Source: Cupriavidus basilensis (GTDB lineage: Bacteria > Pseudomonadota > Gammaproteobacteria > Burkholderiales > Burkholderiaceae). Taken from it: 64,000 bases of DNA. Below the pieces are notes generated by a model that had not been told where the DNA came from, made no database searches, and saw only the letters and a list, made by a program, of their open reading frames with translations. The stretch spans positions 361,365-425,364 of the forward strand of contig NZ_CP062805.1 of the NCBI RefSeq assembly GCF_008801925.2, in the 5' to 3' direction. Shown here one piece after another: positions 2,169 through 29,605 of the stretch. The first letter of the stretch is position 1, and each line of letters starts with the position of its first letter. The position numbers and the translations under genes were made by a program.

Positions 2169-2325
2169 TGTGGATTCTCCGGAGAGCAATGGGGAACCCG
2201 TTGCCGCACCGGGAACGGGTTCCCGGTGGGATGGAATGGATGGACTGGCCCGGCTAAGCGGGCGGCCACCGTACTGCAGAAGCTGGCACCTTGCGGTGCG
2301 GGGTCGATGCGTCTGGGACGCGGAA
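2169..2325 (-). promoter_or_regulatory. Structured 5' leader of parB
   Basis: The 5' flank holds several dyads: a palindrome over the ribosome site (2176-2185), a perfect 11-bp inverted repeat GGGAACCCGTT/AACGGGTTCCC (2192-2202 with 2214-2224), GCACC/GGTGC (2286-2299), the conserved GGTCGATGC (2302-2310), and GCGTC/GACGC (2309-2321). The order stem, GGTCGATGC, stem recurs in front of other minus-strand genes with different stem sequences. From 2326 to 2559 nothing further is recognisable. Confidence 0.6.
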
Positions 2326-2559
2326 AGTGATGTGAGGATAGCCAATATTGGCTTGCGTAGCAAGATCCCGCAAAATGGTTGCTGCCACGTGGCGGCGAAT
2401 AACAACCAGGCACAGACCAGGTTCGTATGGAAGGCGGCCTTGAGGAAAACGTAAAAGTTTTGGTGACAGCTGGCGGCCGCTTGCCGCGCCTACATGGCTT
2501 CTGCGCCTTACAGCACGAACATGCATTGGCACCTCAATTCTTACCATGGCGTGAAACGG

Positions 2560-2838
2560 CTACGACCACTCATACCGCGGCAAAACCTCTATCTCGTCGG
2601 CCGTGACATCGAAATGCAGCAACGTGATGCCAAGTGACATCGCGTATTGCATTACCTTCTCCAGGTCCTCTGGTATTGCATAGTGTCTAGCAGAAGGTGC
2701 GTAGACGTTGATGACCTCCACAAAATAGCTCGCAAAGTTGTTAGCCAAAACGGGCTCTTGTCCAAAGCAGCAAAAAGTCTCTTCCGATAGGTGGAAGGCG
2801 GAAAGCGTCAAGTAGTCGTTAACCGGCAATTTTTTCAT
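2560..2838 (-). CDS. DUF5983-like protein
   Basis: This 92-residue protein starts at the ATG at 2838, which has GGGAA upstream. The C-terminus (ITLLHFDVTADEIEVLPRYEW) has the family pattern of a hydrophobic strand, FD, a glycine/acid stretch and a closing LPxYEW. The N-terminal LTLSAFHLSEET also fits DUF5983, a small domain common on plasmids and integrative elements near antirestriction and partition genes. Function is unknown. The gene lies between parB and the frameshifted parB fragment, so it may have arrived with, or between the arms of, the duplication. Confidence 0.6.
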   Translation of the reverse strand: MKKLPVNDYLTLSAFHLSEETFCCFGQEPVLANNFASYFVEVINVYAPSARHYAIPEDLEKVMQYAMSLGITLLHFDVTADEIEVLPRYEWS

Positions 2839-2879
2839 TGTGATTCCCAATCGTAATTCAGCGGAGAGCGACGTCACGG

Positions 2880-3070
2880 TAGCGCTGCTCTCCAGCGACG
2901 AGCTTGAAATCGAACGCATCGTCCGTTGATAGGGCGAAGTAGGATGGGTTGGTAGACACCGGAAGCCCGGATGGACTCGGTGATTTCAGCCATTTCAACC
3001 GGACAAAGTACGTGCGCGGACTGCGAGCCGTACGGATCTTGCGAAGGGCGACAGCAGTTGGGTATAGCAT
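2880..3070 (-). pseudogene. Frameshifted duplicate of the 5' end of parB
   Basis: Reading from the ATG at 3070, the sequence repeats the start of the intact ParB (MLYPTAVALRKIRTARSPR against MQFPSAVALRKIRTGRNPR), then shifts frame near 3003 where one base is missing. The match continues in another frame (EMAEITESIRASGVYQPIL) and returns at LVAGEQRYRD before stopping. The intact parB matches at a constant offset of 902 bases from 1978 to 2168, so the two frameshifts compensate in length. Only about 64 of 555 codons remain. It cannot give a working ParB. Confidence 0.85.
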
Positions 3071-3235
3071 TGGGGTTCTCCGAAGAGGAATGGGGAACCC
3101 GTTGCCGCACCGGGAACGTGGTTCCCGGCGGGATGGAATGGATGGACTGGCCCGGCGGCCACCGTACTGCAGAAGCTGGCACCTTGCGGTGCCGGATCGA
3201 TGCGTCTGGGACGCGGAAAGTGGTAAGAGAGTATC
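2880..3235. repeat. Second copy of the parB 5' segment and leader
   Basis: This is a direct duplication of roughly 1978-2330, comprising the parB start and its leader, including the GGGAACC...GGTTCCC region, the GGCACC/GGTGCC stem, the GATCGATGC core (about 3195-3203) and the GCGTC/GACGC stem. The leader copy is missing about a dozen bases of the original around 2257-2268 but keeps the paired stems. The arms enclose the DUF5983 gene. Confidence 0.85.
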
Positions 3236-3320
3236 CGAAGTCAGCCCTCCGGATCAATAGGCCCACGCTAGCCCACCCGACCTGATGATCGTAGCAACGG
3301 ATTGGCTCCTGCGGTTGTTC

Positions 3321-3350
3321 AAAAAAAAATGCCCTCTGGAAGGGAGGGCT
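3321..3350 (-). terminator. Rho-independent terminator after the methylase/helicase operon
   Basis: On the minus strand GCCCTC pairs with GAGGGC over a short loop (3331-3349) and is followed by a run of nine T (A-run 3321-3329). It lies downstream of the 81-residue gene ending at 3522, so it probably ends the operon that begins near 9.1 kb. The 170 bases between them hold nothing else recognisable. Confidence 0.75.
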
Positions 3351-3521
3351 GGGAGCAAGTGCGAGAGGGTTTCCGTAGCGGGGGCTGCCGAAACCAGCAT
3401 GGGGCGAACAGCTTTCGCTGTCGCCCAAACGCTCGCCAATTTCTTTCGTCTTTCGCCTGATATTGACTCGGTCGAGTCAGGTACGAGCGAAAGCCCGGCC
3501 GCGCGCGACCAGGCGATTCGA

Positions 3522-3767
3522 TTAGTGGTGCACGCCATGCCGCGGGCCGATGGGCCGCGACAGCAGCGTGGTGACCGCGCCGGCAACTTGCCAGCCGTCC
3601 AGCTCCGATTCAAAAATGCCATGCACCAGCCGATCCAGGCAGATCACCTCCATCCCGTCTGCCTCGACGGTACCCAGGATCCTTGCCACGGTGGTACCGC
3701 GGGTGCCGCGGCACTTGATCGTCGCCAAGCCATCGCCAATGGCGATCCTGCAGTCGTCAGTCTTCAT
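3522..3767 (-). CDS. Small protein coupled to the methylase/helicase gene
   Basis: An 81-residue protein of unknown family (MKTDDCRIAIGDGLATIKC...). Its ATG overlaps the stop codon of the upstream gene in an ATGA (3764-3767), so the two are probably translationally coupled. It is predicted to be soluble, with alternating short strands and GTVEADGMEVICLDRLV in the middle. The coupling suggests it works with the methylase/helicase, perhaps as a small partner subunit, but no motif shows how. Confidence 0.6.
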   Translation of the reverse strand: MKTDDCRIAIGDGLATIKCRGTRGTTVARILGTVEADGMEVICLDRLVHGIFESELDGWQVAGAVTTLLSRPIGPRHGVHH

Positions 3768-6700
3768 GCCGCCTCCTTAAGCAGCTCGCGTTGATCCCGG
3801 ACCTTGCGGCCGTGCAGCTTGGCGAGATCTTCAACAAAATGGTCTAACAGCGTGTCCATGTGCAGGAACGCCTCGTCTTCGAGTTCCGGCGTCGCCCAGT
3901 CCAGACCAGCCTCCATGGCGTCCCGTTTGTGCGCCACCATCTGGTCCTGATAGCAATCGACGCTTCCCGGCAGATGGAAATACACCACCTTTAACTGCCC
4001 TTTCCGGTTCCACCGCAGCGCGCGCCGCATCGCCTGATACTCGATGCGCCACGTCCACGAACGATCATAGAAGAGGACGTAGTCAGCATTGGGCAGGTTG
4101 TAGCCAGCCCGGCCGGACGCCTTGGTACAAAGAAGCCCTGTGGCGTTGCCGCCGACGAACCGCTTGTCCTTGTCGGCCACGCGCTTCGCAATCGGAATGC
4201 CACCATGGAACGGCACGGTCTCCACCCCCTTCGCCTTCAGCTGACTGGCGATGAGGTCGATAACCCCCGGGTTCTCGGCAAACAGGATGGCCTGCTTCCC
4301 TTCGGCGGCAATTGCCACCAGCCGTTTAACCACGGCGCGTTGCTTGCTGGTGAGCTGCGCCAGCCCGCCGACACCGTCTACCCCGTGCTGCGGGTAGTTG
4401 GCGGCGAAATGCACCGCACGGATCCTGGCAAGAATGGCAATCAGATTGTTCGGCCGGCCATCCTTGCGGACGTCCCGGTACCATTCGGCAAACTCGTCCG
4501 CCGTACGCAGGTAGAGCGACAGGTGAGCAGGATCCCAGTCCGTCTCGACCACCTCCACAGCTGGTGGCTCGATCTGGATGTACCGCGACACGTCGGGCTC
4601 GCAGACCAAGCGACGCTTCACGTGCGGCGCCAGCATCTGGCGATACCGCGGGAGATTGCCAATCTTCGGCACTTCGCGCTTCGCCCCGTCCTGCAGGCTC
4701 TCCGCAAATTCCCAGGTCACCCACTCCAGCACCACAAAATCACTGCGGAAGCGGTCGATACCTCGTTCGGCATGCTGCGCCGTGGCCAGCCAGTTCGCCT
4801 CGAGGTAGCCGCGCCGGTAGCCGTACGGCTGGGCCGCAGTGCCGTCGCCACCCGTGAACGCGATCAGTCCGAAGATGTCACGCGGATAGTTGGCGATCGG
4901 GCTGCCTGTCAGGATATAGCGGCGTCTGGCCGACAGCTGCCATAGCGCGCGGCTCTGGTCACTGGTCGGGTTCGACAACCGCTCGCCCTCGTCTGCCACC
5001 AGCAGACTGATACGCCGGCGCAGCCGATGGGCATAGGTGACACGCCGCGACGCCTTCCGGCATACCGGCATGCGAAGCCGTTCGTAGGCGATCAGGTTGA
5101 TTCGTCCCAGCGTACTCAGGTCTTCCGGCGACTCGATCACGTGAACATCCGACGCCGGCAGAATTTGCCCCAGTTCCGCGCGCATCTCCGGGACCAGTCT
5201 GGCTTCCACCACGATCAGGCCATGCCGAACCCCGGACAGCAGGATCAGTGCCGCAGCGAGCCGCGACTTGCCACAGCCCTGCTCCCATGCCGCTACTGCG
5301 CCGTTGGGCTTCATCAGCAGCTCGACCAGGTCTTCCTGCTGGAATTGCCAGTCCAACCACTTGTCGATTCCCAACGCCAGCAGCCGCTTGCGCAGCTGGT
5401 TGGCCTGTTGCGGATAACGGCGTTGCAGCCCTTCATGGACGATTTCCCAGGCCTGCGCCGATTTCTCGACACTGTATCGGGTGGTGATTTCGTCCAACGA
5501 GACGACGTAGCGCTTCCCGCGCACCTCGTACTCATATCGACCATCTGCCTGCCGGGCAAACTGCACTGCCTGGCCAGCTTTGATAATCGGGCTTCCCCAG
5601 ACGGTGGTGTCGACCACATGCGTCTTGGTCGCGACCGCAACGAGCATGTTCACGGCGCCGACGCCCGTTGTCCAAACGGCATGGCGCAGAGGCAGCGCCT
5701 GCCGCGCACTGCGGCGCAGCCGCTGGTGCAAATGCTCCAGAAAGCCCGGCGCGAACTCCGGCTCGCCGCCTGCGCGCTTCACCAGCCTCACGAGCTCGCG
5801 AAGCGCAGCGATCGGATCTGCCTGCACGAGGTAGGTTTCCAGATCCAGCCGACCCGTGCCCGCATAGCAAAAGCCGCTCGGTAGCCGCTGACCTTCCTGC
5901 GATACGATTCGGCGTTCCAACACATGGTTGAGCACCATCGCCTCGGTGAATCCGCACTCGAAGCCGAGGATGATCCGGCGGCCGTCATGCGAGATGCGTA
6001 CCCGTTTCTGCGAGGTTACAGGCCGCGTGATAGCGGGACCGTGATCGTCCAGCAGCTGGTGTGCCAGCTTCGGCTCTCCATATCGCCGCTCGTCCCACTC
6101 CAGCTGGAGCTTCGGCAACGGTGTCGACAGATCCCGCACCGGCTGGCGCAGAATGCCTCCCCGCACGCGGTAGCGAGCAAACACGGCGATGGAGGTGCGC
6201 ACTTCGGCGCCTTCCTCACGAAACGCGTTCGCGGGTAGGTCGAATGCACCCACCACGCGACGCGAGGCATCGCTATATGGCTCGCCATGCGGAATCGACC
6301 CATCAGCAAACTTGTCGACAAACGTGGTCGGAAGCAAGGCGACCACGACTTGTGAGGCGTCGAGTGCCTGGGCAAGTGCGTACTCATGGCTCAGCGCGCT
6401 GGTACGCGGGCCAAACCGGCCCCATGTCGTGCAGTCGTAGGGCTGCAGGTGTGGCGACTCCAGATGAATCGAGAACGGGGGATTTATTAGCGCGATATCG
6501 AATCTGCGCGGATGAATATCCTCCATCCCAGCGTGCCGAAAGCTGCCGTCGAAGCCGGCTGCCTCGATTGCTTGTTGAATTATCTCGATCGTTGGTTTGT
6601 GCACGTCCACACCAAAGAGGCTGTACCTGACCGGATCTGCAAACTGCAGCAGACGGCCGGACCCGACAGAATTGTCCAGGATGGACACCTTCCGATCCGG

Positions 6701-6868
6701 CAACCAGTCGGCCACCACACCCCACATCAGGCGGGCGATCACATCCGGGGTGAAGAACTGCGAAAGATGGCGCTTACGCGCCGCGTGCAACTCGCCCATG
6801 TGCGCGACTTTTTCGGCTTGCGAGCCGAGGCTCACAATAGCCCGTAAGGGCTCGTACCAATTGGTCAT
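3764..6868 (-). CDS. DNA N6-adenine methylase fused to SF2/SNF2-type helicase
   Basis: This 1034-residue protein begins with a methyltransferase domain: LSQFFTP (about 35-41), the SAM-binding DNSVGSGRLL (65-74) and the catalytic NPPF (129-132). The C-terminal half is a superfamily 2 ATPase: GCGKS Walker A (531-535), VADEGE (624-629), LTGSPIANY (653-661), and a C-terminal helicase motif near QAMRRALRWNRKG. The general plan resembles phage DarB-type antirestriction proteins and methylase-helicase proteins of defence islands. The motif II acids read DEGE rather than DEAD or DEAH. The ATG at 6868 has GGGAC upstream; an alternative ATG lies at 6880. It is coupled to the 81-residue gene downstream. 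No restriction nuclease is adjacent, so protection of the incoming element is as likely as defence. Confidence 0.75.
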   Translation of the reverse strand: MTNWYEPLRAIVSLGSQAEKVAHMGELHAARKRHLSQFFTPDVIARLMWGVVADWLPDRKVSILDNSVGSGRLLQFADPVRYSLFGVDVHKPTIEIIQQAIEAAGFDGSFRHAGMEDIHPRRFDIALINPPFSIHLESPHLQPYDCTTWGRFGPRTSALSHEYALAQALDASQVVVALLPTTFVDKFADGSIPHGEPYSDASRRVVGAFDLPANAFREEGAEVRTSIAVFARYRVRGGILRQPVRDLSTPLPKLQLEWDERRYGEPKLAHQLLDDHGPAITRPVTSQKRVRISHDGRRIILGFECGFTEAMVLNHVLERRIVSQEGQRLPSGFCYAGTGRLDLETYLVQADPIAALRELVRLVKRAGGEPEFAPGFLEHLHQRLRRSARQALPLRHAVWTTGVGAVNMLVAVATKTHVVDTTVWGSPIIKAGQAVQFARQADGRYEYEVRGKRYVVSLDEITTRYSVEKSAQAWEIVHEGLQRRYPQQANQLRKRLLALGIDKWLDWQFQQEDLVELLMKPNGAVAAWEQGCGKSRLAAALILLSGVRHGLIVVEARLVPEMRAELGQILPASDVHVIESPEDLSTLGRINLIAYERLRMPVCRKASRRVTYAHRLRRRISLLVADEGERLSNPTSDQSRALWQLSARRRYILTGSPIANYPRDIFGLIAFTGGDGTAAQPYGYRRGYLEANWLATAQHAERGIDRFRSDFVVLEWVTWEFAESLQDGAKREVPKIGNLPRYRQMLAPHVKRRLVCEPDVSRYIQIEPPAVEVVETDWDPAHLSLYLRTADEFAEWYRDVRKDGRPNNLIAILARIRAVHFAANYPQHGVDGVGGLAQLTSKQRAVVKRLVAIAAEGKQAILFAENPGVIDLIASQLKAKGVETVPFHGGIPIAKRVADKDKRFVGGNATGLLCTKASGRAGYNLPNADYVLFYDRSWTWRIEYQAMRRALRWNRKGQLKVVYFHLPGSVDCYQDQMVAHKRDAMEAGLDWATPELEDEAFLHMDTLLDHFVEDLAKLHGRKVRDQRELLKEAA

Positions 6869-6938
6869 GATAGGTCCCATAAGAAAAACGCCCCATCAAA
6901 GACGAGGCATGTAGTGGATCGAATGCGAAATCCGCCAT

Positions 6939-7175
6939 TCAAACTCGGTAGGTGCCAGCCTGCTGCTGGACGAAGGCCAGCAACGTGCCCGCGATCGGAA
7001 GTGCGAAGCGCAACTCCCAGTACTCGTTTAACTGGATGTTGTTGAGGCCAGGGAGGGTCTGACGCTGCTGCGGCTGGAATGGATCGCTTGCGTGGCACCT
7101 TGCCAGGCAACTTGCCAGCGGCGCGTGGCTCATGCAGCGCGCAAACACTGCCAGCGCGAAGAAGGCGGCTATCAC
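6939..7175 (-). CDS. Possible small membrane protein
   Basis: A GTG-started frame of 78 codons. TGGAGCG lies just upstream of the GTG at 7175, a good ribosome site. The N-terminus (VIAAFFALAVFARC) and a later segment (FALPIAGTLLAFVQQQAG) are hydrophobic, so one or two membrane passes are possible. The frame stays open upstream to about 7433 without another good start. It has no recognised family. Strand and spacing fit the operon that continues into the methylase/helicase. Confidence 0.4.
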   Translation of the reverse strand: MIAAFFALAVFARCMSHAPLASCLARCHASDPFQPQQRQTLPGLNNIQLNEYWELRFALPIAGTLLAFVQQQAGTYRV

Positions 7176-7492
7176 CGCTCCAGCGAGCCGAAATGCAGTT
7201 GCCGCATCGGATGTTCGGCGCCGTCGACCTGTTCCGATATCGCCACCAAACGCATCCGCATCGCCGTGGCTGTGCGCCGGGCTGCCATACTGCTGGCTAG
7301 CCCAAGGGCCCGTGGGAGTGTCTGGGCCGTTTACTGAACGGCCATGGCGTGTCCGTTGGCCCCATAGATGCGGCGCAGACGTTTCCCGGAAGTCATCGAG
7401 ATCGGGTGCATCGCCGGCTCGAATGGCTTCTCAGATTTGGCATGGCCGGTGACGGGAATCCGCGTCTCACCATCGGTAGCTTACATCGCGTG
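7176..7492. other. Stretch without a convincing gene
   Basis: Short frames on both strands lack good starts, ribosome sites or recognisable motifs. The region separates the DUF4942-like gene from the small membrane protein and may be a decayed gene. Confidence 0.5.
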
Positions 7493-8278
7493 TCAGGCCG
7501 TCTCTTCCATGAACGCAGCGCCAAATTCGCCGATGAACAGCATCAACGCCTCGGCCACCTGGTGGGAAAACTTGAACTCCCACCCGTCTTTGAAGAAGAC
7601 GATGTCAAGCCCAGGATGGCTTTGCTTCTCGCGGTAGTTGTACTCAATGTTGTGGACATTGATACGCGAGAGGCCACTGGCCAGCGACGAGTGACCCGCT
7701 TTGGCAGCAAAAGCGGTGAGGCCCTGCAGGCAATCCGCGGCAGTCTGGCAGCTGTAGTAGCCCACCTTCCTGCACGATCGCCCGTAGCAGCCTTCCGAAG
7801 TCACTCGCATGCGCAGAATCACCGCTGACGCGGTGCGCTGAACCTCATTGCGCCGGTTGAGCCAGAAGCCTTTGATGATCCGCTGCGCAGCTTGCTGGTA
7901 GGCCAGTTCCTTGCCGCCACTCCCGCCATAGCGGTCATGAAGCGACGCCCACAGCCCGTCAATGTCGGGGATCTTCCCAGCCTTGAGCGCCTTGCCGATG
8001 TCCAGGCCCGCGTGCTCATGCTCTTTGGTATCGTCGATGTCCAGACGTGTTCCCGCAGGAGCAAACTCGCGGCGAGCGCGGTTGACCACATTGCCGGCAA
8101 GCGAAGAGCAGAAGCTTTCAAGCTCCCTGGCCGTTCCATACTCGGAGCGAATCTCCACAGTGTGGCTGTTCCCGGGGATGCCTGCCAGGCACTCGCGCTC
8201 GAAGCTCGCAGCCGAACGATAGGCTGCACATGCCGCCTCCTGGGCCCTGACGAAGCGCTCAATGATTTCGTTGTACAT
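7493..8278 (-). CDS. Unknown protein, resembles DUF4942
   Basis: A 261-residue soluble protein with a textbook GGAGG six bases before the ATG at 8278. The outline recalls DUF4942: an N-terminal helix starting with IIERFVRAQE, a central helical segment with SLHDRYG and RIIKGFWLNRRNEV, and a C-terminal FFKDGWEFKFSHQVAEAL resembling the family's FKNGN-type ending. This family assignment rests on pattern only. DUF4942 proteins are common on plasmids and integrative elements next to DNA-modification genes, as here. The upstream gene ends 13 bases before this start. Confidence 0.55.
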   Translation of the reverse strand: MYNEIIERFVRAQEAACAAYRSAASFERECLAGIPGNSHTVEIRSEYGTARELESFCSSLAGNVVNRARREFAPAGTRLDIDDTKEHEHAGLDIGKALKAGKIPDIDGLWASLHDRYGGSGGKELAYQQAAQRIIKGFWLNRRNEVQRTASAVILRMRVTSEGCYGRSCRKVGYYSCQTAADCLQGLTAFAAKAGHSSLASGLSRINVHNIEYNYREKQSHPGLDIVFFKDGWEFKFSHQVAEALMLFIGEFGAAFMEETA

Positions 8279-8290
8279 GCGGCCTCCAAA

Positions 8291-8773
8291 TTAGTGCAGG
8301 GAGATCGCCGGACCAGCGGGCAAGGGCGAGAAGCCCATCGCCCACCAGGCCGAAACCGGGTGATCAGGGAAATCCGGAATCGTGGTGCTGCAGAACACGG
8401 CCGGCACTTCCGTCATGTCGACAGCTCCGGCAACGACCTGCTCGCGCCACCGTGCTTGTAGGCGCAGCCATGTGAGCTCCGCGCGCGCTATCGCATCCCA
8501 GCCCGTCGGGACCTTGGCTTCGTCGAATAGATCCGCGCCCGCAGCCGTCATGATGGCAACCACTTCATGGTAACGGCCGAGGTCGTGCGCAAATCCGCGG
8601 CGCTCAAACGTGAGCGTGAGCGGATCCGGATTGCCAAAGACCCGCTTCAGCTGACGGATGTAGACCGCGCATTCCAGGCGAGATTTCGCCTCATAGTCGG
8701 GGTGCCCGACCTGCGCGCAGGATTCATCGGCAGGCACCGGCCCGACTTCGATGGAAAGAGAGTGGATGAACAT
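8291..8773 (-). CDS. Unknown accessory protein
   Basis: A 160-residue predicted soluble protein with no recognised motif (MFIHSLSIEVGPVPADES..., ending PLPAGPAISLH). GAGGAAA precedes the ATG. The ribosome site lies in a nearly complete stem (GCGTTTCCTC 8775-8784 with GGAGAAACGC 8794-8803), followed further upstream by the perfect inverted repeat at 8804-8829. The gene is probably co-transcribed with the DUF4942-like gene. Confidence 0.6.
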   Translation of the reverse strand: MFIHSLSIEVGPVPADESCAQVGHPDYEAKSRLECAVYIRQLKRVFGNPDPLTLTFERRGFAHDLGRYHEVVAIMTAAGADLFDEAKVPTGWDAIARAELTWLRLQARWREQVVAGAVDMTEVPAVFCSTTIPDFPDHPVSAWWAMGFSPLPAGPAISLH

Positions 8774-8774
8774 A

Positions 8775-8829
8775 GCGTTTCCTCAAGCGAGTTGGAGAAA
8801 CGCCCCACCGGGGACGTTTCCCCGGTGGG
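8775..8829 (-). promoter_or_regulatory. Hairpin leader of the 160-residue gene
   Basis: Two dyads: a stem that covers the ribosome binding site (8775-8803, six clean pairs plus partial pairing) and a perfect 11-bp inverted repeat around CCCACCGGGG (8804-8814 with 8819-8829, loop of four). This is the same two-stem logic as the parB leader but with different sequence. Confidence 0.55.
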
Positions 8830-8861
8830 TAGTGGATGGATTGGCAGGCGCCCGCGATGGG

Positions 8862-9071
8862 TCAGCCTGCAATGGAAGGCTTCTGCTCCGCAATCGACAG
8901 CTTCGCAAGAAGCCAACTGATCAGGACCAGAAACTCGATTTCGGCAACGAAGTGCACTTGCATCATCGCAAGGCGATCGTCGGCGGTGAAGATAAGAAAA
9001 TACAGGACCGCGAACAGGTTGATGACCGTCGCAAAGACAGCCAGAGCGCTGATACGGGAGGAGACAACCAT
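8862..9071 (-). CDS. Small two-pass membrane protein
   Basis: A 69-residue protein starting at the ATG at 9071, with TGGAGCC upstream. Two hydrophobic segments are clear: ALAVFATVINLFAVLYFLIF and EIEFLVLISWLLAKL. No family is recognised. It heads the minus-strand accessory operon running to the terminator at 3321. Its ribosome site lies in the 3' arm of a GGCTCC/GGAGCC stem (9077-9097), so translation is probably controlled by leader folding. Confidence 0.6.
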   Translation of the reverse strand: MVVSSRISALAVFATVINLFAVLYFLIFTADDRLAMMQVHFVAEIEFLVLISWLLAKLSIAEQKPSIAG

Positions 9072-9076
9072 GCAAG

Positions 9077-9175
9077 GCTCCAAAAAAGAATGGAGCCTTC
9101 CCCATTGGGCAAAGCCCCAATGGGTGGAAAAAAAAGATGGCCGGTACACCGGCAGGGTCGATGCGCTGAAAGCGC
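9077..9175 (-). promoter_or_regulatory. Structured leader with conserved GGTCGATGC core
   Basis: From the start codon outward: the stem GGCTCC/GGAGCC sequestering the ribosome site (9077-9097), the perfect stem CCCATTGGG/CCCAATGGG (9101-9124), GCCGGT/ACCGGC (9140-9153), the conserved GGTCGATGC (9156-9164), and GCGCT/AGCGC (9163-9175). The stem sequences differ from those before parB while the pairing is preserved, which favours RNA structure rather than a protein site. Confidence 0.6.
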
Positions 9176-9236
9176 GAAGAATCGGGCGGATATTACTGCG
9201 AATCGTCGCTCGGGGACAAGTCCCCCCAGCTGCGGC

Positions 9237-9752: not shown

Positions 9753-9910
9753 GGGATTTCCCGAAAAGATACCCCAAATTCTATAGCTTTCGGGCGCAAC
9801 TCCCGCCACGGGCGCCTTGAGAATGTGTTTGGCGAATCTCGCCGGCCGGCGGCCTTGACTTCGCGATGGCGCCGGTATCTTGGTCATAGACCATTCGATA
9901 CCTCGTTACC

Positions 9911-16196: not shown

Positions 16197-16538
16197 CCAA
16201 ACCGATCAGCCCTGAGCATGGAAGCAATGCGTCGTGACTGTCCGCAGTGCGGGCGCAGGCCTTCGCCTTGCACGCCGCTGCGCGGCCACCCTATCCGGTG
16301 CATCAATGGATGCCAGCCTGACGGCGCCAGGGATTTCGTCCTGGTGCAGCCGGCCGATGCCGTGATGAGTGATTACTTGTTGCGCCGTTCTGGTACCGGT
16401 AGCGCCCCCCGGGTCGATATTGCTCAGAAGCCTGCGTCCACCGCTCGTTCGGTACGCAAACAGCTCCCCGCCCCAAAGCCGGATCATCCCTGCTGCGGTG
16501 TGTCGGGCTTCGTGATCCGCGCCCAGCCAAGCGGCTGA
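16197..16538 (+). CDS. Possible small Cys-rich protein
   Basis: A 113-codon frame (MPNRSALSMEAMRRDCPQCG...) with CPQCG, CTPLRGHPIRC and a later CCG, suggesting a zinc ribbon. The ribosome site is weak, and part of the C-terminal half is low complexity. It may be a real small zinc protein or a remnant; overlapping minus-strand frames look worse. Confidence 0.3.
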   Translation, partial: PNRSALSMEAMRRDCPQCGRRPSPCTPLRGHPIRCINGCQPDGARDFVLVQPADAVMSDYLLRRSGTGSAPRVDIAQKPASTARSVRKQLPAPKPDHPCCGVSGFVIRAQPSG

Positions 16539-17117
16539 AAGGGCGTCGGGCATTCGTGGAAATTCCACAGAGCACCTGTCCGGTGTCCGGCTTCGGAATT
16601 GTCCACACTGCGGTCTATTTTCACGAACAGACCGCCAATCGGCTTGGTATCGCGGTGTCCGGTGTCCTCACTATCCGACACGGTCCATTTGATTTAATTG
16701 AAAAAAATGCCGTTTCAATTTCCGGCGTGAACAACTGGCGATCGCAAGGCCCGAATGTCGGGGTTTTGCGTGCTGGATTTGCCGCGCAACTGGCGGCGAG
16801 GTCGATGCGTCGGGGACGCGGTAAGTGCTCGAAGCATATACCAGGCATGGGCCAAACGGCAACGTTTGCCACTGCAAAATCGCGAGCTTTCGGCGACTTG
16901 ACTTCGATTTTCCGACGGTAGAGTGGGCTATGTCGATGTGCCATCTAATCCGACGCTCTCAAAGCAAGACCGACAAAGTCCGACCAAGTCCCAGATGCTC
17001 CCACCGACCTGAGGCGAGTGAATGGGGCTCGGAGGTACAAAGTCCCACTTGCTCGGAACACGAAGGACATTCGACACATCGGAGCCATCCACTTCAATGA
17101 ATCGCCAAGGAGCACAA
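16539..17117. promoter_or_regulatory. Upstream region of the parM operon
   Basis: This region has no convincing gene. It contains an orphan leader module (GCCGC/GCGGC at 16781-16797, GGTCGATGC at 16800-16808, GCGTC/GACGC at 16807-16819) pointing to the minus strand. An AT-rich patch lies around 16690-16730. A cluster of AAGTCC repeats occurs at 16976-17047, including AAGTCCCA at 16986 and 17040. Repeats in front of an actin-type segregation operon are where a ParR-binding centromere is expected. Confidence 0.45.
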
Positions 17118-18829: not shown

Positions 18830-18912
18830 TCTTCGATCGGGATAGGGGCAGGCCTCGCGGCCTGCCTCCTCCCACACCACCGTGCATACGGGTCCGTACA
18901 CGGCGGTTCGGA

Positions 18913-19932: not shown

Positions 19933-19964
19933 CAGCGCGAACTGCACAAGCGCTCAACGAGCAT

Positions 19965-20637: not shown

Positions 20638-20773
20638 GGGGCGTCGGTGAGCCAGTCGCCGCTGTCGCTCACCAACTCCATCGACCTGCAATCGGCCGGC
20701 GTACTCATCGCCAACATGCTCGAAGCCTGGCTCATCGCAGAGCCCGCGCTGGAGTTGACCGAGGAGGCCGTCG

Positions 20774-22846: not shown

Positions 22847-22865
22847 GAGGTGCATTATGAGATCA

Positions 22866-23190: not shown

Positions 23191-23828
23191 GGAACTGATC
23201 CTCCTCCGTGTCCTTACTCACTGTCGTCCGGGCTCTTCCCAATCATCTTCGCCGGCTGCCTTCCCCGACCCACTTCTGTCGCCGATCGCTCGGTCACGTG
23301 GTTTTGGCCACGCTTCAGGTACTACTCAGCCGTCCGACTACTGGCACAGCACCGCTCGCCACTTCGCTCCTCGCTTATAGGCTCACTTCCCGCGGTGCCA
23401 CCCGCAGACTGTGCCAGTCCTCCTGAGGTCACACGCTGTTCTTCCGTACCGTGCCGTCCGCAAACACCTTGGTGCGGTGGGTGAATGAGAACGCCTTCGC
23501 CCCCATACTGCGGGCTCGACCTTGCCCCACCTTTGGCCGACCGGTTCGTCATCGGGGCAGCCCCCATCGACTACGGCCCGGTACTTCTCCTCATGCCCTT
23601 CGGATTCCACCTCGCGGTGGACACCCTGCCCTCCGGAGACCTACGGGAAGGTGGCTCCAGGTCTGCCTTGGCTGTCTCCGGCTTTCGCCTTCGTGCCCGG
23701 TTAGGCATCTCCATACCTGCCTTCTCTCTCCGGCCAGCGAGGCATTACCCCCGCTTTTGGATATGACGCCCCTCATCTGAGCGTCAGAGGGACTTGAACC
23801 CTCCCGAACAACGCGCTGCTCAGCGCAC

Positions 23829-24173
<345 letters not shown>

Positions 24174-24184
24174 CAAAAAAAAAA

Positions 24185-25517
24185 GGTTCTTCACCGATTT
24201 CCGGGGAAGGCCGCCCGGATCTTCAGGAAGAAGTAATGGTCATCGCGGAAGCCATAGGCCATCCGTTTGATGACCTTGATCCGGTTATTGATGCCTTCCA
24301 CCAGATTGGTTCCCAACGGCCAGCGGCTGTGAGCCAGGATGCCGGGTAAATATGGCTTGAGGCGTTTGGCGAACAGGCACAGAGGTGCGATGCCGCTGGC
24401 CATTGCGCGCTCGTACCACCCTTGCCAGAAGCGCCGGGCGTAGCCGGGATGCCGATATGTCCAGAGCGTCTTGAGATCGTCCTTGAGCACGTAGACGGTC
24501 ATCAGCGCTTGGTTGGCAGCCAGTATTTCATCAAGCCGGATCTGATCGGCCTCACGCGTGACGTTCTCCCGATTGCGCAGCAGTAACCAACGAGAAGACT
24601 TCACCACCTGACGAGCGGTCTTGTCGCCGCGCAGCCGATTAGCCTCATCCACCCTGACGCGGTCGATGACCTCACGACCGTACTTGGCCACCACGTGGAA
24701 CAGGTCATAGACAACCTCCGCTTGCGGGCAGTGCATCCGCACTTCCAGGTCGTAGGCGGTATTCATGTCCATCACCGCGGCGCGAAGCCGGGCACAGCCT
24801 TCAGGGCCAAGCAGCTTGAAGAAGGGCCGGATTTCCTCTCGGGAGCGACCGCGCCCGACCCAGAGTACCCGCTTGCTCGACGGCTCGACGATGACTGTGG
24901 CATAGCGATGGCCCTTCTGGATCGCAAACTCGTCCATCGCGATCACCGTGACCCCGCTCAGATCGACCGGTCCCAATTCCCGCTCAAGATGGCGCAGATC
25001 GATGCGCTTGACCGTGGTCCAGGCCAACCGGTAGAAGGCCGCGACATGGCGCAACGACATGACCTTGCACAGTTGCGCTACGCTGGCCGCAAGCCGCGTC
25101 GTAACCCGCGCATAGGGCGCGAGCCAGTCCAGGCGCTCCAGCTTCGGGCCACATCGCCGGCAAGCCAGACGAAGTCGCGGCACGATCAGCTCCACCGGAA
25201 TCTCGAACACAGGCAGATCCCGCACGCGCCGCTCTACCCGATCATGGATACTGCTAACGCCCCGACCACAGCCATCGCAGCACCGCCTACGGCGCCCCTT
25301 AGGTTCCAGCCGGATGATGCAAATACGCTGCCCATTGCGGGTCTCTTCCCAACTATCGCGCATGCGATAGCCTTCCCAGCAGCCGAGCTGGGCCATACAA
25401 TCGCGTGGGGCCAACCTCCACCTTCCTGATTCTTGTTGTGTCGCAACTCCAAGATAACAGTGGTGGGCGTGTTGGCCCTTTTTGTTTCTAAACGGTCACG
25501 CAGATCGGCGAAGAACC
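24185..25517 (-). mobile_element. ISL3-family insertion sequence
   Basis: The ends GGTTCTTCACCGATTT (24185) and, inverted, AGATCGGCGAAGAACC (to 25517) form imperfect terminal repeats. It is flanked by runs of A, and eight A at 25518-25525 match eight of the ten A before 24185, consistent with the 8-bp target duplication of this family. It has landed in the A-tract next to the terminator at 25526-25550. Total length is 1333 bp. Confidence 0.8.
24191..25414 (-). CDS. ISL3-family transposase
   Basis: A 407-residue transposase of usual family length. The N-terminal zinc finger (CDGCGRGV then CRRCG) is followed by a helix-turn-helix region and a DDE catalytic core: [20 protein letters not shown] (first Asp), [13 protein letters not shown] (second Asp) and [20 protein letters not shown] (Glu). 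It is uninterrupted, so the element may be active. A later in-frame ATG six codons in (MAQLGCWEG) is an alternative start. Confidence 0.85.
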
Positions 25518-25550
25518 AAAAAAAAGCCCAGCAGTTTGCTGGGCTTTTTT
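25518..25550. terminator. Bidirectional rho-independent terminator, target of intron and IS
   Basis: GCCCAGCA/TGCTGGGC (25526-25544) is an 8-bp stem with A-run before and T-run after, so it can stop transcripts from either side. On the minus strand its T-run is where the group II intron 5' end lies once the ISL3 element is removed; insertion just after terminator T-runs is known for class C group II introns. Confidence 0.8.
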
Positions 25551-25567
25551 GTGAATGGGATGGCCTC

Positions 25568-25777
25568 TCAGTGAAGAGTCGGCGCCAAACAGTAGTCGAG
25601 GGCGGAATCGAACGAGAACTTCCGGTCTAGGAACGTGAAGCCACCGGACGGCTCTCGGCGGTACACATCGAAGAATTGCGCTTCCGATTGTCCGGCCTGA
25701 ACTTCCGTAGCGGCGGTCGCACGCATAGCTTGGATATGCAGTTTATTGATGATTGCTGTGAAACCCTTTTGCGGCAT
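25568..25777 (-). CDS. Unknown small protein
   Basis: A 69-residue protein starting at MPQKGFTAIINKL (ATG at 25777) with GGAG eight bases upstream. It is soluble, with a possible strand-rich C-terminal half (EAQFFDVYRREPSGGFTFLD). No family is recognised. It is the last gene before the terminator at 25526. Upstream the leader has the perfect stem CCCTGTGGG/CCCACAGGG (25818-25840), again the hairpin-leader pattern. Confidence 0.55.
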   Translation of the reverse strand: MPQKGFTAIINKLHIQAMRATAATEVQAGQSEAQFFDVYRREPSGGFTFLDRKFSFDSALDYCLAPTLH

Positions 25778-25880
25778 TGCTTTTCTCCTCGGAGAGCCTG
25801 CCAAGGGGGGACTCCTTCCCTGTGGGAAGGACCCACAGGGCAGAGGTTAGGTAAGGCGCCACCGGCTGGTGGCGAACTGA

Positions 25881-26957
25881 TCAGGCGGTAACAGCCTGTT
25901 GAGACATCAGGCGCAACTGGTACTCGGTGCGCCATTGATCGCAGAAGTCGGTTCCACGAACCTTTGGTCGATGCATGACGGTGTGCAGCCCTTCGGCGCG
26001 CAACCGCTTTTCCAACGCGAGCGCGTCGGCCATGCCTGGGGACTTTCGGGTCTTCGGGTCGATCCTGTCAAAATCCGCGAAGATGTGGACCGTGCGGATG
26101 CCCAGGTCCGGCGGCACCACAAACTGACTCAGCAGTACCCGGTTGAGGCAATTCCATGCCGGCACGCCGAAGAGCATGTACGCCGCATAGGCGCTCTCCA
26201 GCCCTTCCGCGACACCAACTTCACCATCGCGCGGTTGCATCAGACGCACTGCACCACCGGTCAGCGGCAACGCAGACACACCATTGCGCTTGGCCGGGAG
26301 GATCTCCCCATCCGCAGTGATTATCGTCGCCTTGGCGGGCTGTCGCGGGTCGAGCGACGTGCGATGCACCGTGGCCATGCGCCCATCTGGCCGTGTGAAT
26401 TGCGCAACGATGGTCGGGTAGCGGCCAACAAGCTGGCCTTCATACCAATAGTCCTGCACCGCCAGGCGCAAGGCCGTTGGCCGCGGCGCGCGCAGGCCAG
26501 GAACCCGGGCAGCAAGATAGCGCATGGCGTGATCGCCAGGCACCAGCCCGGCAGCAGCTTCCCACTGCTTCGCAATACGCCGCATCTTGGTGGCGGGATC
26601 TACTGCTTTCCCCCGGCGAGCTGAATTTGGCCTCGTAAAGGGGGGGTCGATCGGCACAGCCCGCTCGCCATTCAAGTCCCGCCACAGTTCCGAGTAGGTC
26701 ATGCCGGTGTAGCAACGCACGAGCTCGAGGCCGTCGCCGGCTTTCGGATTCCCTGCATTGCACTTCCGGCAGACCCAATCGCCGCGGCCGCGTTTGTTGT
26801 CATAGGTAAAGCGGTCATGGCCACCACAGAGGGGGCACGGACCTGGGCGTCCTCGCCAGAAGTTGTCCGTCAGGACTTCCGCTGGCACGTACTGCCTCAC
26901 CAGAGCGTCCCATTGAGCGGGCGTCCAGCTTTTTACGATATCACTCAGTTCTTTCAT
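25881..26957 (-). CDS. Zinc-ribbon/Toprim primase
   Basis: A 358-residue protein. The N-terminal zinc ribbon of the P4-type primase kind (CPLCGGHDRFTYDN...WVCRKC) lies at residues 41-67. A central linker domain follows, then a Toprim-like catalytic domain with GVAEGLESAYAA near 260 and TVHIFADFDRIDPKTRKSPG near 305. It synthesises RNA primers, probably for plasmid replication or for strand replacement in recipients; the helicase half of P4 alpha is absent. The ATG at 26957 follows a GGAG held in a small CTCC/GGAG stem. Upstream is the leader with the conserved core. Confidence 0.8.
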   Translation of the reverse strand: MKELSDIVKSWTPAQWDALVRQYVPAEVLTDNFWRGRPGPCPLCGGHDRFTYDNKRGRGDWVCRKCNAGNPKAGDGLELVRCYTGMTYSELWRDLNGERAVPIDPPFTRPNSARRGKAVDPATKMRRIAKQWEAAAGLVPGDHAMRYLAARVPGLRAPRPTALRLAVQDYWYEGQLVGRYPTIVAQFTRPDGRMATVHRTSLDPRQPAKATIITADGEILPAKRNGVSALPLTGGAVRLMQPRDGEVGVAEGLESAYAAYMLFGVPAWNCLNRVLLSQFVVPPDLGIRTVHIFADFDRIDPKTRKSPGMADALALEKRLRAEGLHTVMHRPKVRGTDFCDQWRTEYQLRLMSQQAVTA

Positions 26958-26961
26958 GGGA

Positions 26962-27000
26962 TGGCTCCAGGTGGAGGGTTGGTCGATGCCTGAGACAGGC
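26962..27000 (-). promoter_or_regulatory. Compact structured leader of the primase gene
   Basis: CTCC/GGAG (26965-26976, covering the ribosome site), the conserved GGTCGATGC (26981-26989) and GCCTG/CAGGC (26988-27000) follow one another directly. This is the shortest version of the leader module and shows the minimal layout: stem, core, stem. Confidence 0.6.
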
Positions 27001-27111
27001 GAAGGAACGCTTGCTCAAAAGACATCCCGGCCGAGGCCAGAAGGTCTTTTCAGCATTGCGTTTAGCTGAGGGGAATATGGGGATTTGGCCGAGCGGCCGA
27101 GAAAGGCACCG

Positions 27112-27136
27112 CTGCTACCGGGCAAGCCGGTAGCAG
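27112..27136 (-). terminator. Possible attenuator after ssb
   Basis: A perfect 10-bp inverted repeat CTGCTACCGG/CCGGTAGCAG with a five-base loop, 34 bases downstream of the ssb stop. It lacks a T-run, so it may pause transcription or protect the 3' end rather than terminate fully. Confidence 0.45.
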
Positions 27137-27169
27137 TTAGTTCAAAGAGGCACTTCTTGGAGGAGCGCG

Positions 27170-27739
27170 TCAGTACATCGGCGCGCCATCGTTGCGGAAG
27201 GGAATGCCATCGAGCACTGCAGGTCGCGCGAAGGGAATCTCATTGTCGTCGAATCCGCCGAATCCACCCGACGGCGGTTGCGCAGGCTGCTGACGCGCCG
27301 CGCCCGAGCGTTGCGTTGGCGGAGCCGAGCGCTGCTCGCTCCCACGACGCTGCTGCGAATCCGCTCGCTCTGCGCCGGCATCGCCGTCGTCATCGTTGAC
27401 ACCCGCGCGACCACTGAGCATCTGCATTTGATCGGCGACGATCTCGGTACTGTACTTGTCCTGGCCGGACTGATCCTGCCACTTGCGCGTACGAATGCGG
27501 CCTTCGATGTAGACCGGCGAACCCTTGCGCAGGTACTGACCAGCAATTTCTGCCAGCTTGCCGAAGAACGAAATGCGATGCCATTCGGTGGCTTCCTTCA
27601 TTTCGCCGGACTGCTTGTCCTTGTAGCGATCGGTGGTCGCAATACGGATGTTTGTCACCGCGTCGCCACTGGGCATGTAACGAGTTTCAGGATCTGCCCC
27701 GAGGTTGCCCAGGAGGATGACTTTGTTGACGGATGCCAT
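27170..27739 (-). CDS. ssb: Single-stranded DNA-binding protein
   Basis: A 189-residue SSB. The OB fold is clear ([20 protein letters not shown], then [20 protein letters not shown] and [16 protein letters not shown]). A Gln/Gly/Pro-rich linker follows. The acidic tip that normally ends the protein (DDDIPF) appears as DNEIPF but is followed by about 20 extra residues ending RNDGAPMY, so partner binding through the tip may be altered. The plasmid SSB is likely to coat DNA during transfer and dampen SOS in recipients. It lies in an operon with the primase and the KfrB-like gene. Confidence 0.92.
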
Positions 27740-27751
27740 GGTGCTTCCTAT

Positions 27752-28552
27752 TCAATGAACGAGATTGATGTTCCAGACCCACCTGTCCCAGAGCTTCTGC
27801 TCTCCGGTCCTTGGGTCCTTAATGGGATCGCCAGTCTTCTTATCGAAGGCTGGCACCTTTTCCTTGCGCAGGCGTTTGACCGCAACACGGTCACCCAGCT
27901 TGCAACCGGCTTCTGCGAGAGCGTCCTTCAGACCTTCGCCCTGCAGGGTCTTCTCGCCGGCACTCGTGTACAGCTTGACGGCAAACGAAGTGTAGGTACG
28001 AGGCCCGCCAGACTTACGGTTGGGGAACTCCATTTCGCCCCACTCGATGAGCTTGCCCACGGTGTAGGCGGAAGAGGAACCCTTTTCAGAGGAGGCGCTT
28101 CCGCCCCCTTCCCGCTCGCCGTCTTCGCGTTTGCTGCGCGATGGCTGGGCGCCATCCAAGCTACGCGTTGGCTGAAAGCGGCGCCCTCCTGCTGGCGCGT
28201 CACTACTTGTCGGCACGTCCGGCGTGAGTTCGCGCTCGGCTTGAAAAATGACGTCAGCCGCGACCTTCTCCAGCGCTTCGCCTGGATGCACGCTGACCTG
28301 TTTCCAACGAGGGATCACCTCCGGCAGCAGCTTGTCGCCATACGGCGTGCTTTGCAGCCGATGATGAAAGCCCCCAACGAAGTGGATCACGCGATCACCT
28401 TCGTCCCGAAGCAGATGGGGGACGCCGTGAACATAGAACTGCCGCTCGTTGGCGGCGCCCGTGCCGACCGGGATCGTGCTGGGAGAGGATGACCCTCTGT
28501 GTTCCGCGCTCAGAACACCGGCCACACGCTTGATGAGATTGAGCCAAGTCAT
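27752..28552 (-). CDS. Unknown protein with KfrB-like C-terminal domain
   Basis: A 266-residue protein. The last 90 residues (TYTSFAVKLYTSAGEKTLQG then ALAEAGCKLGDRVAVKRLRK) resemble the KfrB-type domain found in plasmid relaxases and accessory proteins. The N-terminal 110 residues (VHGVPHLLRDEGDRVIHFVG) form a separate globular part, joined by a charged disordered linker. It lies 13 bases before ssb and four bases after the next gene upstream, so it is part of the same operon. Function is unknown. Confidence 0.55.
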   Translation of the reverse strand: MTWLNLIKRVAGVLSAEHRGSSSPSTIPVGTGAANERQFYVHGVPHLLRDEGDRVIHFVGGFHHRLQSTPYGDKLLPEVIPRWKQVSVHPGEALEKVAADVIFQAERELTPDVPTSSDAPAGGRRFQPTRSLDGAQPSRSKREDGEREGGGSASSEKGSSSAYTVGKLIEWGEMEFPNRKSGGPRTYTSFAVKLYTSAGEKTLQGEGLKDALAEAGCKLGDRVAVKRLRKEKVPAFDKKTGDPIKDPRTGEQKLWDRWVWNINLVH

Positions 28553-28555
28553 GGT

Positions 28556-28984
28556 CTAAAGAAGGGAGCCACAGCACAAACGTCGGACCACATCGAGGTC
28601 GCAACGCAGCCTGGCATGATTGAGAATCACGTCTTGCAGGGTCTCAGGGTCGACCCCGGATACTGCGCAGACGTAGCTATATGGCAACGCGCCATTCCAG
28701 TAGCCAAAGATCCAGCCGAGCGTCATCGAGTATTCCTCCAGATCGAGAGGCCGATTGCGCATGCGGGCACGCAGCATCTCGGCACAGTCGATGAGGGACT
28801 CCGGCATGTTGTCGCCGCGCCGGCTATCGCAGGCGAGGCTGATGAGAGCGTCGACCATTTTCTCGCGCACCGCCTTGCTCCAGAGAGAAGGGTCGGGCAA
28901 CGGGTCGAGCTTGGGAGGGGGCACTACGATGGCGGCCGCCTCACCGAAGAAGTCGAGCTGCCATCCCGCTGTTGTCGTTTCCAT
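28556..28984 (-). CDS. Unknown protein
   Basis: A 142-residue protein with a helical core (LWSKAVREKMVDALISLACD, LDCAEMLRARMRNRPL-like) and no recognised motif. The ribosome site GGAG before the ATG at 28984 is buried in a perfect 9-bp stem, GGTCTCCGG/CCGGAGACC (28988-29013). It probably heads the ssb operon. Confidence 0.55.
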   Translation of the reverse strand: METTTAGWQLDFFGEAAAIVVPPPKLDPLPDPSLWSKAVREKMVDALISLACDSRRGDNMPESLIDCAEMLRARMRNRPLDLEEYSMTLGWIFGYWNGALPYSYVCAVSGVDPETLQDVILNHARLRCDLDVVRRLCCGSLL

Positions 28985-28987
28985 GAT

Positions 28988-29080
28988 GGTCTCCGGACAG
29001 GCACCCGGAGACCCGCCAGCCGGCGGATAACGGGTACCCGCGACAGGTGGAAAGCGCCGCCTCAGAGAGGCGGCAACGGA
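28988..29080 (-). promoter_or_regulatory. Hairpin leader before the 142-residue gene
   Basis: Stems in order: GGTCTCCGG/CCGGAGACC (28988-29013, covers the ribosome site), CCGCC/GGCGG around 29014-29026, CGGGTACCCG around 29031, and GCCGCCT/AGGCGGC around 29055-29073. The layout resembles the other leaders, but the GGTCGATGC core is replaced by GGATCA at the upstream gene's stop codon. Confidence 0.5.
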
Positions 29081-29389
29081 TCAGGAACGGTCGTGCGTTC
29101 CCGCTCGACGAAGCGGCGTCACCACAGCCGAGCGTTCATACGGTTGCTCGAGCGGATCTCCCACTTGATGCGATTCGTGCTTCGATTTGGATTGGGTATC
29201 CGGCATCGAAACCTTCGGCGCTGCGGGCACGGCCTTGTTCCAGACCATGGCCCGGTGATACAGGAATGACAGTCCAACGACGGTCACAAAGGCACCGACG
29301 ATGAACGACTGCGACGCCATGTACAACACCATGCAGAGCATGAAGAATTTGAATGGACGCTTGATGAGATTCGTGACAAAGGATTCCAT
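29081..29389 (-). CDS. Small membrane protein
   Basis: A 102-residue protein starting at MESFVTNLIKRPFK (ATG at 29389) with GGAGAG upstream. One long or two short membrane helices span FFMLCMVLYMASQ to FVTVVGLSFLYH; the C-terminal half is polar, basic and probably cytoplasmic. No family is recognised. Its leader ends with the conserved core at 29587-29595. Confidence 0.6.
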   Translation of the reverse strand: MESFVTNLIKRPFKFFMLCMVLYMASQSFIVGAFVTVVGLSFLYHRAMVWNKAVPAAPKVSMPDTQSKSKHESHQVGDPLEQPYERSAVVTPLRRAGTHDRS

Positions 29390-29393
29390 AGTT

Positions 29394-29605
29394 TCTCTCC
29401 AGAAACGTTGCAAGGGATTTCCTGGCAGATGCCAGGCGATGGTTCGATGCTCCGAGGGAGCAAGGAATCTCTGGAGGAACAGCTGCGCTTCAACGCGCTT
29501 GCGGCATGCAGTAGCGCATGGCGAAAGCACGCTGGCGTGGGCGGGGGACTATGAGATTGAGCGCTGCCGCCATTCGGCGCGCACTAGGTCGATGCGTCTG
29601 AACGC
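29394..29605 (-). promoter_or_regulatory. Structured leader of the small membrane protein
   Basis: CTCCAGA (29397-29403, overlapping the ribosome site) can pair with TCTGGAG (29469-29475). Further out are a GCCG/CGGC stem (29566-29578), the conserved GGTCGATGC (29587-29595) and GCGT/ACGC (29594-29605). Confidence 0.5.

Follow-up and report, generated by a model that had tools for sequence, protein, structure and literature searches.

Translational riboswitches and attenuators with anti-Shine–Dalgarno (anti-SD) and anti-anti-SD arms alternate between two mutually exclusive folds, one of which buries the Shine–Dalgarno sequence (SD). HK022 put sites form two hairpins at the 5′ end of the nascent RNA and bring about processive antitermination; in put RNA and the lambda nut sites alike, nascent RNA begins with hairpin(s) and a single strand of conserved sequence. 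Closer in phylogeny are the sbcD RNA (RF01757), listed for Burkholderiales in Table 1 of PMC2864571, and the Burkholderiales-1 motif (2010), from the same order and given in that table without an Rfam number. Here we report a short 5′ RNA element, hereafter the tag, that occurs six times in a 64,000-nt stretch of Cupriavidus basilensis DNA (contig NZ_CP062805.1; ‘the window’, G000:C3:361365–425364), the terminal part of a 425-kb plasmid contig. Leaders bearing it resemble riboswitches in their two predicted exclusive folds but, unlike them, have no ligand-sized conserved aptamer, the conserved part being a short tag common to genes and non-coding RNAs. The put and nut sites are likened to the tag by architecture alone, and its downstream SD switch and terminated non-coding members fit them poorly. 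The sbcD RNA occurs on the same plasmids, but its Rfam model spans a 155-nt 3′ domain and leaves out the common 5′ element; no sbcD domain accompanies most copies of the tag, and the sbcD model gave no match over the tag copies themselves. None of the 4227 families of Rfam 15 matched the 11 copies at E ≤ 10. The radC RNA (RF01754), described before genes for DNA-binding proteins and mobile elements and named in the original prediction as the first family to compare, matched in no Rfam scan, including that at E ≤ 10 on 11 short loci covering all copies on the plasmid, and a scan of the window itself returned only group II intron matches plus others at chance level. No description of such an element was found among the titles and abstract openings listed in literature searches. 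The element looks undescribed, although overlap with the Burkholderiales-1 motif, compared by name and table row alone, is possible in principle.

Read 5′ to 3′ in the RNA, the tag consisted of about seven unpaired, pyrimidine-rich nucleotides, a five-pair hairpin with a three-base loop (P1, mostly GCGUC/GACGC), the sequence AUCGACC, 2–4 nt and, usually, a hairpin of variable sequence (P2). The original prediction that six places share one structured 5′ element before plasmid-maintenance genes, RNA rather than protein-coding, was borne out: searched with the second covariance model, filters off, all six scored 26.6–53.7 bits, compared with 14.9 for the next best place in the window, although these scores are not an independent test, since the same six helped to train the models. 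The prediction had, however, read the element on the plus strand. Its functional strand is the minus strand, on which the plus-strand GGTCGATGC reads GCATCGACC in RNA, with cores at 2302–2310, 3195–3203 (one change, GCATCGATC), 9156–9164, 16800–16808, 26981–26989 and 29587–29595. The 9-mer core by itself (≤1 mismatch, both strands summed) was matched 58 times, against 28.6 ± 4.8 expected. Five further minus-strand copies stood just upstream of the window (L011 15391, 14245, 10836, 4927 and 1287), giving 11 on the plasmid within one 48-kb stretch. Across the whole 8.9-Mb genome the first model recovered these 11 at E ≤ 0.0043 and no others at E ≤ 0.01; five weaker matches elsewhere (E 0.046–0.86) look like chance. 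Both models (R1 and R2) were trained on the window and related copies, and their E-values are rough. Single pattern matches on other contigs of the host lacked the full unit wherever the surroundings were scanned, and no tRNA or tmRNA was detected in the four sources scanned.

The tag proved to be widespread in one family and closely tied to one kind of plasmid. When the first covariance model was run over 299 Burkholderiaceae genomes, a check proposed with the original prediction, 71 had a place at E ≤ 0.01 and 50 formed a multi-copy set (at least two matches, best E < 1e-3) with up to 20 copies per genome; the 21 genomes with weaker or single matches were set aside, and in none of them did a PRTRC ParB exceed the cut-off. 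PRTRC ParB above the curated cut-off was present in 45/299 genomes, 44 of them within the multi-copy 50 (Fisher p 6e-45, the genomes being related). Several contigs are near-identical plasmids (G276:C2 and pMOL28; G000:C3, G208:C32 and NZ_AP025173), so that counts are not independent. The tag was found on pMOL28 of Cupriavidus metallidurans CH34, and a PRTRC ParB is present on the megaplasmid of Cupriavidus necator H16. The window was identical to plasmid pMTS2 of Cupriavidus sp. P-10, PRTRC-type and typed conjugative, over both stretches compared (9,700 and 7,901 bases). A divergent PRTRC ParB (593 bits) was observed in G121 and G144:C4, the former carrying no tag. In all 29 contigs with at least two matches (two of them second records of the same plasmids), every match, 138 in total, lay on one strand, compared with 384/647 long open reading frames by crude calling in the same stretches; this placement might have to do with the direction in which the plasmid enters during conjugation or is replicated.

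Loci outside the training set also carried the tag, with 8 places on pIII of Paraburkholderia dioscoreae and 9 in the first 50 kb of pMSMB608 of Burkholderia vietnamiensis (E ≤ 3.2e-4). Nine of these 17 ended ≤110 nt upstream of an annotated coding sequence (CDS) start, two headed sbcD RNAs and at least one (L130 44834, within parB) looks false. The same pIII locus has a match to RF02278, a betaproteobacterial toxic small RNA family (L130 11092–11148). Wider searches returned 69/369 genomes of the class at E ≤ 0.001, own genome included, and 7/300 of the order at E ≤ 1e-5, including our own and one of the same genus. Matches outside the family (about 19–31 bits) were unclustered, at one to four per genome, and were taken as chance. 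Of the two that were looked at, one (L102) had no −10-like hexamer at the usual place (1/6), and the other (L101 1500–1530, genome G620, 30.9 bits) paired a P1-like GCGCC/GGCGC with ATCGAC after a pyrimidine-rich stretch, had a poor −10 (3/6) and was treated in the same way. Four 24-kb PRTRC stretches from Undibacterium, Methylomonas, Pseudomonas pQBR103 and Sphingobium scored 12.1 bits at best, and no Rfam family reached its gathering threshold there; the tag is therefore not general to PRTRC. Exact tags, among the matches listed, occurred in Cupriavidus, Paraburkholderia, Caballeronia, Burkholderia and Ralstonia, plus scattered other hosts. One viral contig (L262 3620–3760) combined an exact tag, a −10-like hexamer, a following hairpin and then more apparent hairpins, probably by chance. 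In the searches made, the element is restricted to Burkholderiaceae and is there strongly associated with PRTRC-type plasmids.

A promoter stood at a fixed distance from the tag. In 129 distinct sites aligned on the core, a −10 box (TANNAT) occupied −32 to −27 and an A was preferred at −20 (79/129); a TATAAT-like hexamer (≥4/6) began at −33 to −31 in 89/129 sites, compared with 0–7/129 at eight control offsets of the analyst's choice. From the box and the preferred A, the predicted transcription start lies 20 nt upstream of the A in AUCGACC, or 12 nt past the first base of the −10 box, with P1 from about +8. Among the matches listed in an exact-tag scan (80 of 118 genome stretches plus 10 viral, sorted by record titles), 48/61 Burkholderiaceae places had a −10 at the expected spot, compared with 1/37 of the rest, a group of 26 genomes from elsewhere and 10 viral contigs in which the single Ralstonia place, lacking a −10, was also counted. 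Median distance from core to start codon was 88–138 nt in heuristic families 0–5 and 9, and 29–32 nt before the primase. The element thus lies between promoter and start codon on the same strand, the position of a structured cis-regulatory 5′ leader. On pMOL28 the predicted starts are at 90669, 83384, 78883, 84558 and 82676 (minus strand). Maps of transcription starts have been published for C. metallidurans CH34 (PMC9045368, with 5,763 starts, and PMC7563307), and section 3.2.2 of the latter places a TAnAAT motif on pMOL30 and not on pMOL28, a statement that, at face value, lends no support to −10 boxes on pMOL28.

Pairing was retained while stem sequences varied, although unevenly between the two stems. 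The original prediction had seen covariation within the window, where stem 1 read GCGTC in three copies, GCGCT and GCCTG in one each and a four-pair form in the sixth; these copies alone support covariation only modestly, and the claim held chiefly for stem 2 in 121 distinct sequences. There, 85.3% of cells paired (stem 1, 98.8%; stem 2, 71.2%), and the covariation score was 0.386, compared with 0.135 in shuffled rows and ≤0.093 with partners slid, although the alignment had itself been fitted to the covariance model. Stem 2 held most of the signal; stem 1 had both-side changes in three of its five pairs, and U–G pairs in five cells. The 35 nt after the core folded at a mean of −9.0 kcal/mol (shuffled letters, −4.7), and RNAalifold, given seven orthologous leaders, returned four hairpins (P1–P4) unprompted, with one pair changed on both sides. 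Covariation of the kind that marks a structured leader was weak in stem 1 and strong in stem 2, in P4 and in the alternative P3/P4 pairing.

Those last two hairpins belong to the mRNAs. Tagged mRNAs encoded ParB with the PRTRC operon, a glycine-zipper protein, an AAA ATPase, the primase and an N-6 DNA methylase, besides small membrane proteins, unknown proteins and, at 275–289 nt, a DUF932 protein. Gene assignment was heuristic: 5/150 sites had no gene, some leaders were mis-assigned, the 69-aa gene at 9071 was missed and false genes were called for non-coding copies. Many mRNA leaders continued into P3 and P4, the latter including the SD (15/22 element-led CDS across four plasmid stretches with annotation). 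The 5′ arm of P3 resembled the SD arm and was complementary to the 5′ arm of P4 (anti-SD), the two pairing at −10.9 kcal/mol in the matched leader and at −7.9 between permuted families (11 families); no value that low arose in 20000 permutations. For this analysis, gene families were chosen and start distances limited to 60–160 nt; 71/75 leaders were parsed, four without P4 being dropped. Among the 45 pairs of ten leader segments (67 of those leaders, 11 families, ≤5 each), the two hairpins themselves gave z of −8.1 and −7.2 (order not implied), the alternative pairing −5.8 and the next pair −2.4. Before parB, P3 GGGAACCC is able to capture GGGUUCCC, the 5′ arm of P4; this copy of P4 has imperfect pairing, and folding the entire leader to minimum energy gives a different structure. 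Before the small membrane protein, P3 GGGGCUUU alternatively pairs with P4 AAGGCUCC. The alternative pairing suggests a two-state translation switch. For the core itself, no other leader segment stood out as a gene-specific partner (z no lower than −2.0), which argues that the tag probably acts via a protein, RNA polymerase or another trans partner and not by pairing inside the leader.

Tag and switch are often together, yet separable. P3/P4 with strong alternative pairing preceded 12/22 element-led CDS and 18/184 others, at a threshold of the analyst's choice and without a shuffle control, and chance may account for part of the 18. These include two stems that had been put forward, together with those at 9077–9097 and 26965–26976, as burying ribosome binding sites. 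Folding confirmed the latter pair, whereas the stems at 28988–29013 and 8775–8803, though present, stood before inner genes without a 5′ element of their own. These stems would belong to the P3/P4 two-state module, which is thus also found without the tag; in the primase leader, the hairpin at 26965–26976, its P2, itself buries the SD (GGAG), a short form.

Two groups of predicted tagged RNAs encoded no protein: an RNA of about 127 nt in the window and one of about 0.5 kb with sbcD sequence as its 3′ part. The former corresponds to the copy called an orphan in the original prediction. Its terminator-like hairpin and U-run were kept in nine aligned loci, in GCCGG/CCGGC and GCCGC/GCGGC versions, although the stem in the window has four good pairs only and went unlisted in a simple terminator scan; by its sequence, the ‘orphan’ is a conserved short RNA with its own putative terminator rather than a stray copy. 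It is directly followed, at about 16500–16700 (minus strand) and beside PRTRC protein D, by a conserved block that contains GGACACCGGACACC-like repeats and may be an origin or a site for partition.

The longer RNA, outside the window, was conserved from L011 4945 to about 4400 (minus strand), where it ends at a terminator-like hairpin. An sbcD RNA match (L011 4513–4666, 139.8 bits) lay 233 nt downstream of one copy of the tag. sbcD RNA was present in 45/299 Burkholderiaceae genomes, all within the multi-copy 50, and the tag stood upstream on the same strand in 47/49 sbcD places, at 231–245 nt in 31 and at 220–236 nt (by subtraction) in 16 others; of the other two places, one (G037) had no tag upstream and one starts at a contig end. 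Tag-led sbcD RNAs were found in P. dioscoreae and B. vietnamiensis as well. From this linkage, the known sbcD RNA seems to be the 3′ portion of a more extended transcript, and the Rfam entry appears truncated.

On balance, we lean towards a common 5′ RNA tag that is bound by a common factor and joined to a gene-specific two-state translation switch. Transcription would begin about 7 nt before P1, so that P1, the exposed AUCGACC and usually P2 would form the 5′ end. In the OFF state P4 would pair the SD with the anti-SD arm; in the ON state the SD-mimicking 5′ arm of P3 would take the anti-SD arm away, P3 + P4 and the P3′–P4′ pairing being mutually exclusive. A common factor, probably plasmid-encoded, would bind the tag and shift the balance for parB and the PRTRC operon, the primase, the AAA ATPase, the DNA methylase and other backbone genes together, and the orphan and sbcD RNAs, bearing the same tag, would compete for the factor or deliver it. 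Computation supports the tag, its promoter position and distribution, the covariation of stem 2, the alternative P3/P4 pairing and the tie to sbcD RNA; we infer the transcription start, the ON/OFF behaviour with its direction and trigger, the trans factor, the sponge role and, as first proposed, coordination of maintenance genes. The larger proposal, of a plasmid-wide post-transcriptional regulon with one tag, one trans factor, the sbcD RNA as a sponge or effector and SD-mimicking P3 arms as gene-specific switches, is tentative: possible, and short of probable.

Several observations weigh against a common tag with gene-specific switches. Six multi-copy genomes had no PRTRC ParB over the cut-off and one PRTRC genome (G121) had no tag; the sbcD place in G037 had none in the 330 nt upstream, even with filters off; and in the primase copy the expected position holds no clear −10, and the predicted +1 is a T. 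Pairs changed on both sides (8) were matched by 61/500 shuffles. Stem 1 was GCGTC/GACGC in 100/129 sites, which leaves little covariation there and makes a dyad in the DNA possible, and full conservation of the core is partly selection, because the model was trained on it. P2 is not universal: the leader family of a CobT-like 170-aa gene (including L011 1287) folds without it, and at least four pairs could form after the core in 124/129 real but also in 116/129 shuffled sequences. As to the switch, a leader's own P3 was the best partner of its P4 in just 5/11 families (in family 29 it ranked 10th), and modules without a tag mean that tag and switch may be independent. The median unpaired probability of the SD was 0.20 in 85 leaders and 0.27 in 250 control CDS (p 4e-8), so that burial is only modestly above controls, with three large families near 0.25 and one at 0.40; and most leaders are predicted to have their energy minimum in the OFF fold, so that ON would need help.

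Chief among the alternatives, though we consider it unlikely, is that P1 and AUCGACC act as DNA: a plasmid-encoded repressor would bind the dyad GCGTCNNNGACGC and ATCGACC just downstream of +1 and so coordinate the promoters, the folds of the leaders being a separate matter. The fixed spacing from the −10 box, the near-invariant dyad of stem 1 and the leader family without P2 would all suit an operator, and a transcriptional regulator would simply explain why the element heads two non-coding RNAs. An operator accounts less well for a conserved block that is asymmetric and extends downstream only, usually followed within a few nucleotides by a hairpin whose sequence varies while its pairing is kept. 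The both-side changes and U–G pairs of stem 1 also speak for RNA, the wobble argument being weak (7 U–G vs 4 C–A letters in the ungapped register).

It is improbable, in our estimate, that the tag is a mere 5′ stabiliser, or part of a selfish promoter-plus-leader cassette spread by recombination, without coordinated regulation. Same-strand placement, many copies per plasmid and the intact leader retained by a broken parB copy are what such a cassette might leave; however, P2, P3 and P4 differ strongly between gene families with their pairings kept, so that the leaders appear to be of long standing and under selection, not fresh copies, and seven unpaired nucleotides before P1 are unlike a typical protective 5′ hairpin. 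Slightly more improbable still is put-like processive antitermination, in which the tag would carry RNA polymerase through terminators in the long plasmid operons: the conserved single strand that usually has a hairpin on either side at the very 5′ end, the presence of the tag on mRNAs and non-coding RNAs alike and the long operons downstream are consistent with it, but some tagged RNAs stop at terminator-like hairpins, at about 127 nt in one case and about 0.5 kb in the other, and constitutive antitermination there would be pointless.

Features of the window that bear on the common tag and its switches are collected in the table. A second, broken parB (2861–3221) lies in tandem with the working one and has kept its promoter and leader intact. 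Elsewhere in the window, group II intron matches at 18836–18908 and 23798–24089 (one slightly below gathering) bracket a stretch with a recombinase frame.

Table. Positions in the window of tags, hairpins and associated genes.
Feature	Position	Strand	Details
5′ element of PRTRC parB leader	2282..2328	−	predicted +1 2328; P1 2309–2321; AUCGACC 2302–2308; then P2
−10 TATCCT of parB leader	2335–2340	−	upstream of predicted +1 2328
P3 + P4 before parB	2172..2228	−	P3 ~2207–2228, P4 ~2172–2199; limits hand-counted on fold
PRTRC system ParB, first gene of PRTRC operon	504..2168	−	TIGR03734, 754 bits
5′ element before broken parB copy	3175..3221	−	core GCATCGATC; predicted +1 3221
P3 + P4 of broken parB leader	P3 3105–3132, P4 3073–3100	−	
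Remnant of second parB, 70 aa	2861..3070	−	leader intact
5′ element before small membrane protein	9136..9182	−	P1 GCGCU/AGCGC 9163–9175; P2 9140–9153
P3 + P4 of small-membrane-protein leader	9074..9124	−	P3 9101–9124; P4 9074–9099, SD GGAG within P4
Small membrane protein, 69 aa	8862..9071	−	start read by eye from sequence
Inner P3/P4 module without 5′ element, before gene 8291–8773	8774..8829	−	= L099 28184; limits hand-counted
Short non-coding RNA (‘orphan’)	16700..16826	−	predicted +1 16826; P1 16807–16819; core 16800–16806; P2 ~16781–16797
Terminator-like hairpin of orphan RNA	16709–16726	−	then U-run 16701–16707
Short primase leader	26961..27007	−	P1 GCCUG/CAGGC 26988–27000; core 26981–26987
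Primase-helicase zinc-binding domain protein	25884..26957	−	
Inner P3/P4 module without 5′ element, before gene 28556–28984	28988..29050	−	= L099 7973; outer limit approximate
Weakest 5′ element copy	29567..29613	−	four-pair P1 GCGU/ACGC, four-base loop
Membrane protein, 102 aa	29084–29389	−	behind long leader of weakest copy

To our knowledge, control of the backbone genes of PRTRC plasmids, among them pMOL28 (C. metallidurans CH34) and the C. necator H16 megaplasmid, has not been described. If true, the RNA-tag regulon, of which no description was found, would take in genes for maintenance, replication and DNA modification in a family of conjugative plasmids, and the sbcD RNA would gain a role, a 5′ end and a regulatory context. 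A common tag joined to a gene-specific SD switch would account for coordination with no need of an operator shared among promoters, and P3 and P4, in which one hairpin arm mimics the SD and captures the anti-SD, would offer a clear model of a modular bistable leader.

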